DNA of 64,000 bases from Egicoccus halophilus (lineage in GTDB: Bacteria > Actinomycetota > Nitriliruptoria > Nitriliruptorales > Nitriliruptoraceae): contig NZ_CP036250.1 of NCBI RefSeq assembly GCF_004300825.1, positions 1,178,001 through 1,242,000 of the forward strand, written 5' to 3'. Shown here one piece after another: positions 29,921 through 37,879 of this stretch (the first letter of the stretch is position 1; each line of letters opens with the position of its first letter). The notes below the pieces were generated by a model. It was not told where the DNA came from. It saw nothing but the letters and a program-made list of their open reading frames with translations, and did not search any database. Made by a program: the position numbers and the translations under genes.

Positions 29921-30364
29921 GTGAACGCCGCCACGCCGTCGCTGCACACCGTCCCCGCCTTCGCGCTGGACCGCGCCACGTGGGACGCGCTGGTGGAGCA
30001 CGCCTGGTCGGACTTCCCGTACGAGGTGTGTGGGCTGCTCGGGATCCGTCCGGACGGCAGCTGCGTCCACTTCCCGATCGACAACGCGGAGCGGTCCATG
30101 ACGTACTACGTCATGGACGCCAAGCAGCTGCTGCGTGCGATGCGCGAGATCGAGGACGCGGGTTGGGGCCTGGCGATCTACCACTCGCACACCCACACGC
30201 AGGCCTATCCGTCGGCGACGGACATCCGGTTGGCGGCGTACCCGGAGGCGACCTACCTGATCGTCACCCTGCAGGACCGTGACCACCCCGACATCCGGGG
30301 GTTCTCGATCATCGACGGCGTGGTCACCGAGAAGCCGGTCGTCGTCCCGGACGAGGTGGTCTGA
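29921..30364 (+). CDS. mec: JAMM/M67 zinc peptidase, Mec+-like (CysO-processing)
   Basis: A 147-residue metalloprotease of the Mov34/JAB family. The zinc motif is complete: Glu35 in FPYEVCGLLG, His88 and His90 in HSHTHTQAYPSATD, with Ser98 and Asp101. In mycobacteria the homologue Mec+ frees cysteine from the carrier CysO after CysM has joined it. The GTG at 29921 has GAGGAGG 7 nt ahead, and the domain starts soon after. Its CysO and CysM partners lie 6.3 kb downstream instead of next to it. Since CysO here ends in GGAR, this peptidase may also trim the last two residues (inference). The stop overlaps the next start (TGATG). Confidence 0.9.
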   Translation: MNAATPSLHTVPAFALDRATWDALVEHAWSDFPYEVCGLLGIRPDGSCVHFPIDNAERSMTYYVMDAKQLLRAMREIEDAGWGLAIYHSHTHTQAYPSATDIRLAAYPEATYLIVTLQDRDHPDIRGFSIIDGVVTEKPVVVPDEVV

Positions 30365-36625: not shown

Positions 36626-36901
36626 ATGCCTGTCGTCCGCATCCCCACCGTGCTGCGCAAGCACACCGACAACCAGGCCAAGGTCGAGGCCGAGGGCGGG
36701 ACGGTCCGTGAGGTGTTCCACGACCTGACCGGCTCGCACCCCGGCCTGCAGGAGCAGCTGTTCGACGGCGAGGACGTGCGCGGCTTCATCAACGTCTACG
36801 TCGACGACGAGGACATCCGCTACGTCGAGGGTCTCGACACCCCCGTCGAGGACGACACCGAGATCGCCATCATGCCGGCGGTCGCTGGCGGCGCTCGCTG
36901 A
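36626..36901 (+). CDS. cysO: sulfur-carrier protein CysO (MoaD/ThiS fold) with extended tail GGAR
   Basis: A 91-residue ubiquitin-like sulfur carrier for cysteine synthesis from O-phosphoserine. The sequence matches mycobacterial CysO throughout (VRIPTVLRKHTDNQ, DLTGSHPGLQEQL, RGFINVYVDDEDIRYV, IAIMPAVAGG). Known CysO proteins end in the di-glycine that is thiocarboxylated; here two more codons follow, giving GG-Ala-Arg before the TGA at 36899-36901. The Gly-Gly must therefore be exposed by a peptidase, presumably the JAMM enzyme at 29,921 (inference), as in QbsE-type carriers. The ATG at 36626 is preceded by GAGG some distance away (10-11 nt). The gene is 39 bp ahead of cysM. Confidence 0.92.
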   Translation: MPVVRIPTVLRKHTDNQAKVEAEGGTVREVFHDLTGSHPGLQEQLFDGEDVRGFINVYVDDEDIRYVEGLDTPVEDDTEIAIMPAVAGGAR

Positions 36902-36940: not shown

Positions 36941-37879
36941 ATGCGCTTCGACGACGTCTCGCAGGCCATCGGCAACACGCCGCTGGTCGGACTGCCGCGT
37001 CTGTCGCCCGACGGCTACCGCATCTACCTCAAGCTCGAGGGCCACAACCCGACCGGATCGGTCAAGGACCGGGTCGCCAAGTACCTGATCGAGCAGGCCG
37101 AGCGTGCCGGTGAGCTGGTGCCGGGTCAGCGGGTGCTCGAGCCGACCTCCGGCAACACCGGTATCGCGCTGGCGGCCGTCTGCAAGGTCAAGGGCTATCC
37201 GCTGACGTGTGTGATGCCGGAGAACACCTCGGAGGAGCGCCGACAGCTGCTGACCATGTTCGGCGTCGAGCTGGTGTTCTCGCCCGCGAGCGAGGGATCG
37301 AACGGCTCGGTGCGGTTGGCCCGCGAGCTCGCCGCCGCCGACCCCGCGCTGTTCATGCCGTTCCAGTACGGCAACCCGGCCAACGCCCTGGCGCACTACG
37401 AGACGACCGCCCCGGAGATCCTGGCCGACCTGCCCGAGGTCACCGCGTTCGTGGCCGGACTCGGCACCGGCGGCACGGTGACCGGCGTCGGGAGGCGGCT
37501 CAAGCGCCACGACCCCGACATCAAGGTGTTCGCGGCCGAGCCCGAGTACGGCGACCTCGTCTACGGTCTGCGCAACCTCGACGAGGGCTACGTGCCCGAG
37601 GTCCTCGACCAGTCGGTGCTCGACAGCCGCATCAAGGTCGACTCCCTCAAGGCGCTGCAGTACACCCGCGAGCTCGCCGAGGTGGAGGGCATCTTCGCCG
37701 GGGTGTCCACCGGTGCCTCGCTGGCCGTGGCGGTCCGGGTGTGCAAGCGGCTGCCGGCGGGCTCGACGGTCGTCGCCCTCTCGCCCGACGGCGGCTGGAA
37801 GTACCTCTCCACGGGCGCCTACGCGCCCGGCGACGTCCGGGAGATCGCCACCCGCATCTCCGGCACCCTGTGGGCCTGA
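36941..37879 (+). CDS. cysM: O-phosphoserine sulfhydrylase / cysteine synthase CysM (CysO-dependent)
   Basis: A 312-residue PLP enzyme, fold type II. The PLP lysine is Lys42 in NPTGSVKDR; the substrate loop TSGNTGIAL, the phosphate loop GTGGTVTGVGRRL, and the C-terminal LSPDGGWKYLSTGAY stretch match the mycobacterial CysM that uses O-phosphoserine and CysO-thiocarboxylate rather than sulfide. The start ATG at 36941 is immediately before the conserved FDDVSQAIGNTPLV. The gene directly follows cysO and is followed by an MBL gene, rph and rdgB, the order found in mycobacteria. Confidence 0.95.
   Translation: MRFDDVSQAIGNTPLVGLPRLSPDGYRIYLKLEGHNPTGSVKDRVAKYLIEQAERAGELVPGQRVLEPTSGNTGIALAAVCKVKGYPLTCVMPENTSEERRQLLTMFGVELVFSPASEGSNGSVRLARELAAADPALFMPFQYGNPANALAHYETTAPEILADLPEVTAFVAGLGTGGTVTGVGRRLKRHDPDIKVFAAEPEYGDLVYGLRNLDEGYVPEVLDQSVLDSRIKVDSLKALQYTRELAEVEGIFAGVSTGASLAVAVRVCKRLPAGSTVVALSPDGGWKYLSTGAYAPGDVREIATRISGTLWA

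Follow-up and report, generated by a model that had tools for sequence, protein, structure and literature searches.

The activation chemistry of the sulfur carriers MoaD, ThiS and CysO requires a terminal glycine carboxylate. QbsE of Pseudomonas is reportedly a carrier with residues after the Gly-Gly. Capped carriers from Streptomyces platensis were described in Nature Communications in 2018, PtmS2 ending in -MV and PtmS3 in -C, and that paper states that such caps typically require a protease, as with QbsD (PMC6006322). Deletion of ptmS1, encoding a JAMM peptidase, or of ptmS4, encoding an E1-like enzyme, abolishes the thiocarboxylate products; deletion of ptmS2 alone leaves them, which the authors explain by redundancy (PMC6006322). 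In Deinococcus radiodurans, DRJAMM cuts MoaD-MoaE, leaving a C-terminal Gly (PMC8832034). The release of ThiS and MoaD from fusions by JAB peptidases was proposed in 2006, and an actinobacterial operon of carrier, JAB peptidase and cysteine synthase was already listed there (PMC1779556). CysO itself is sulfurated at its terminal glycine by MoeZR (PMC3227635). No publication treating CysO, JAMM and thiocarboxylate together was found in the literature searched.

The cysO locus and the described systems

The window (the whole 64-kb stretch of DNA that was analyzed) belongs to a genome of 3.98 Mb in one contig and contains the following features:

~29924..30364, + strand: mec, JAMM peptidase (PF14464), putative start codon, motif PYEVCG ... 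HSHTHTQAYPSATD intact
36626..36901, + strand: cysO, sulfur-carrier gene, 91 aa, ATG start, C-terminus AVAGGAR
36893..36898, + strand: GCT CGC codons (Ala-Arg) capping the Gly-Gly, tail at the same place in 28/28 family orthologues
36941..37879, + strand: cysM, cysteine synthase, closest solved structure that of M. tuberculosis CysM (3dwg_A, E 2e-104)

The cysO gene ends with GGC GGC GCT CGC TGA, finishing at position 36901, and the encoded protein ends in IMPAVAGG-A-R. It matches PF02597 (ThiS/MoaD) with an E-value of 2.7e-14, as a member of the beta-grasp family, and M. tuberculosis CysO (PDB 3dwg_C, E 1e-18) aligns to residues 4-89, terminating exactly at AVAGG. A gap of 39 bp separates cysO from the adjacent M. 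tuberculosis-type cysM, whose product is a putative O-phosphoserine sulfhydrylase by its best solved match (M. tuberculosis CysM / O-phosphoserine sulfhydrylase). We assign the gene at 36626..36901 to the CysO class of carriers; carriage of a thiocarboxylate and yield of cysteine are predicted from the sequence. The preliminary description had reported likeness to mycobacterial CysO along the length of the protein, two codons between Gly-Gly and stop, and a JAMM peptidase gene 6.3 kb upstream. All three observations were confirmed: the alignment covers residues 4-89, GCT CGC is read directly in the open reading frame, and mec lies on the same strand with a gap of ~6.3-6.4 kb to cysO.

A capped CysO with a JAMM peptidase is an already known kind of system with a tested counterpart in Streptomyces. 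Like PtmS2 and PtmS1 of S. platensis, the locus combines two residues past the Gly-Gly with a clustered JAMM gene; the JAMM is genetically required for sulfur transfer in S. platensis, whereas its role here is predicted from the genes. Furthermore, PtmS2 and PtmS1 were assayed in thioplatensimycin synthesis and not in cysteine synthesis, and the tail is a different one. In the thioquinolobactin system of Pseudomonas, likewise a tested precedent, the carrier QbsE reportedly also has residues after the Gly-Gly, and the JAMM peptidase that trims it is QbsD (cited in PMC6006322), but this is a siderophore pathway with a different carrier family member. M. tuberculosis has the same three genes, and no or hardly any solved structures are closer than those of its CysO and CysM; however, its CysO ends at AVAGG and the tail is absent. 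The cut of DRJAMM after the Gly-Gly of MoaD-MoaE likewise activates a carrier (PMC8832034), but there a whole enzyme is removed and the pathway is that of molybdopterin.

C-terminal tails of CysO and the dispersed element

The C-termini of the CysO orthologues of Nitriliruptoraceae were tabulated. Residues after the Gly-Gly were read in 28/28, with one tail (G008) running past the contig end, and a bare Gly-Gly in 0/28; the preliminary description had considered that related CysO proteins might all stop at Gly-Gly, which is not what the table shows. The CysO core is conserved across the orthologues and AVAGG is invariant; the tails have lengths of 1-64 aa and divergent sequences (R, AR, AAA, A, AG, DG, CG, MA, AVS, SNGR, AGPARGPRAGRGLRA, repeats and longer ones). 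Four tails are present in the window's genus, AR, AAA, one of 19 aa and one of 64 aa, despite cores that are 84-96% identical to the CysO of the window. The identical -AR end is found in a separate genus (G001-G004).

Tails are not confined to the family. Among 98 CysO-like proteins from outside it, drawn from a sample of 198 Actinomycetota genomes, 56 are capped and 42 end in bare Gly-Gly, the commonest first tail residue being Ala, Cys, Ser, Met or Arg. Together with the -MV end of Streptomyces PtmS2 (PMC6006322), these counts contradict the earlier statement that known CysO proteins end in Gly-Gly. The 80 named loci include capped and bare proteins from outside the family, mixed even inside Tsukamurella, and capped CysO paralogues without an adjoining cysM also bear tails in the Actinomycetota sample.

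ThiS of the same family was used as a control and ends in bare Gly-Gly in 14/15 proteins; a sixteenth search match, L311, is not ThiS and was left out. Comparison of tailed CysO (28/28) with tailed ThiS (1/15) gives a Fisher p of 2e-10, which is a description and not a strict test, since the genomes are related and no phylogenetic correction was made. Further carriers in the window's genome are a CysO paralogue ending in GG-A and a ThiS with bare GG. The Gly-Gly is hidden in a MoaD-MoaE fusion (L001:1051-1755, - strand) and in a fusion between a ThiS-like domain and a TtuA-like enzyme (L005:1234-2718, + strand) of this genome. An in-frame CysO-CysM fusion is encoded in a more distant actinobacterium (G053, L164:577-1872, - strand), and a CysO-like protein is fused to an E1 enzyme in another one (G087, L221:1-630, - strand).

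Long cysO tails in six family genomes (loci L007, L010, L012, L020, L021 and L029) are copies of a dispersed element of ~40 bp. Its consensus is GTCGCCGGTGGCGCGGAG, followed by GCGRAGCC or CGNAGC and then by GAGCACGCACGGCGC, and the encoded peptide is VAGGAEAKPSTHGA or VAGGAERSEHARR. Several of these tails are made of tandem units of 45-48 bp, each recreating AGGA. The element was found at 21 loci across the 35 genomes searched; six of the 21 are in cysO tails, a share that is biased upward because the patterns were derived from cysO tails. The reversed pattern gave zero matches in the same 35 genomes, and within the 64-kb window matches to the element occurred only at chance level. Flanks are duplicated at several copies. 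Elsewhere in the window's genome, MetH contains five tandem in-frame copies between two domains (C1:160961-161165, L275). The element is also present in frame in ValS and near the C-terminus of NuoE (element loci including L261, L280, L279, L283 and L293), as well as in an open frame preceding the HisH domain, where the start codon of hisH is putative. Palindromic elements of Rickettsia insert in genes, and the dispersed element may resemble them. At its left end the element corresponds to the codons for VAGGA at the end of CysO. We tentatively suggest that the cysO stop codon may be a landing site for the element, because the tail would be cut off and discarded, and that the element may have arisen from cysO and then spread in frame to metH, valS and nuoE as well as to the stretch preceding hisH; we see this as a possibility with the odds somewhat against it.

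The JAMM peptidase and the E1 enzyme

The mec gene of the window is the only PF14464 match in its genome. One strong E1 match was found as well, a MoeZR-type protein with ThiF and rhodanese domains (Pfam). A JAMM is present in 28/28 family genomes with this CysO, and in 24/28 it is located upstream of cysO, sharing its contig and strand, at a distance of 170-6355 bp, the mec of the window being the farthest of these 24. The catalytic residues, comprising the E and the HxH...SxxD motif, are retained in the family JAMMs that were read. Linkage of the JAMM alone does not prove tail trimming, because the JAMM is required for cysteine release anyway. Between positions 30364 and 36446 of the window, genes on both strands part mec from cysO, among them, by eye, putative genes for malic enzyme and topoisomerase IB; in several relatives mec and cysO are close.

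The genome G014 (loci L317 and L309) encodes a capped CysO paralogue (GG-CGAAR) and a capped ThiS (GG-CT). No JAMM was found in G014 by the Pfam model or by the family alignment, and a missed gene is possible because this genome is a draft (98% complete) with 5% contamination. Bare Gly-Gly ends were read in five further JAMM-less genomes, though mostly in distant, perhaps MoaD-like proteins; G014 is an exception. The association between tail and JAMM, with JAMM-positive status taken from an Actinomycetota-wide search, has a p of 0.016 without G014 and of 0.087 with it, most JAMM-less genomes holding only distant relatives.

Proposed maturation of CysO and alternative explanations

We consider the following path probable. 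CysO would be produced as a short precursor, in which the C-terminal Ala-Arg prevents adenylation of the terminal glycine. Mec would cleave after the Gly-Gly, constitutively, and the single MoeZR-type E1 would next adenylate and thiocarboxylate the exposed glycine. CysM would convert the CysO thiocarboxylate to CysO-cysteine, from which Mec would liberate cysteine, and the regenerated Gly-Gly CysO would cycle. The gene anatomy, the universality of the tail in the family, the ThiS control, the presence and linkage of the JAMM, its intact motif, and the single JAMM and single E1 were read from the sequences, whereas we infer that Mec is the cleaving enzyme, at which step relative to activation it acts, and that it does so constitutively. 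The tail would be a disposable stub, and its sequence and length would therefore drift; conversely, the lack of conservation in both points to constitutive removal. That CysO is capped and has a JAMM as its maturase is very likely, and such an arrangement is ordinary for this group. The preliminary description had proposed that a masked Gly-Gly needs trimming and that the JAMM could perform it. Comparison supports the masking, the trimming requirement and the JAMM as its likely agent.

Another peptidase, such as a carboxypeptidase or a housekeeping protease, might remove the tail, leaving the JAMM only to release cysteine. Very short tails are within the reach of a carboxypeptidase, and in G014 both a CysO-like protein and ThiS are capped with no JAMM detected. 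However, tails of up to 64 aa and fusions to whole enzymes demand a cut after the Gly-Gly, and deletion of ptmS1 blocks the Streptomyces pathway, making this explanation unlikely. The preliminary description had also suggested that trimming adds a maturation switch to cysteine synthesis. In such a reading, controlled removal of the tail would set the cysteine output. A precursor step exists in principle, and a study in Archaea describes a JAMM and SAMP1 as a reversible control pair (PMC4443979). This suggestion gained no support, because neither sequence nor length of the tail is conserved even inside one genus, and this speaks against the tail holding a regulatory element; in addition, mec and cysO are usually neighbours. 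A conserved regulatory tail was dismissed on the same grounds, and we regard regulated removal as quite improbable.

Slightly less probable still is a reading in which the cysO-cysM junction creates the tail as a by-product, through stop-codon drift, spacing or translational coupling, and CysO works untrimmed. The cysO stop adjoins the cysM start in several relatives, but the two genes are 39 bp apart in the window, capped paralogues without a neighbouring cysM are tailed too, and ThiS, exposed to the same drift, remains bare. The activation chemistry with its need for a terminal glycine carboxylate also speaks against an untrimmed CysO. An error of sequencing or assembly at the cysO stop has next to no probability and was ruled out by the tails in 28/28 family assemblies and the identical -AR end in another genus.

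Taken together, the JAMM peptidase of this pathway likely has a second task, the trimming of a capped CysO. Far from being a rarity of natural-product clusters, sulfur carriers with a cap are common at the cysteine-synthesis loci of actinobacteria. Since the tails vary freely and some consist of a dispersed in-frame element, the proposed discarding of the tail is easily testable.
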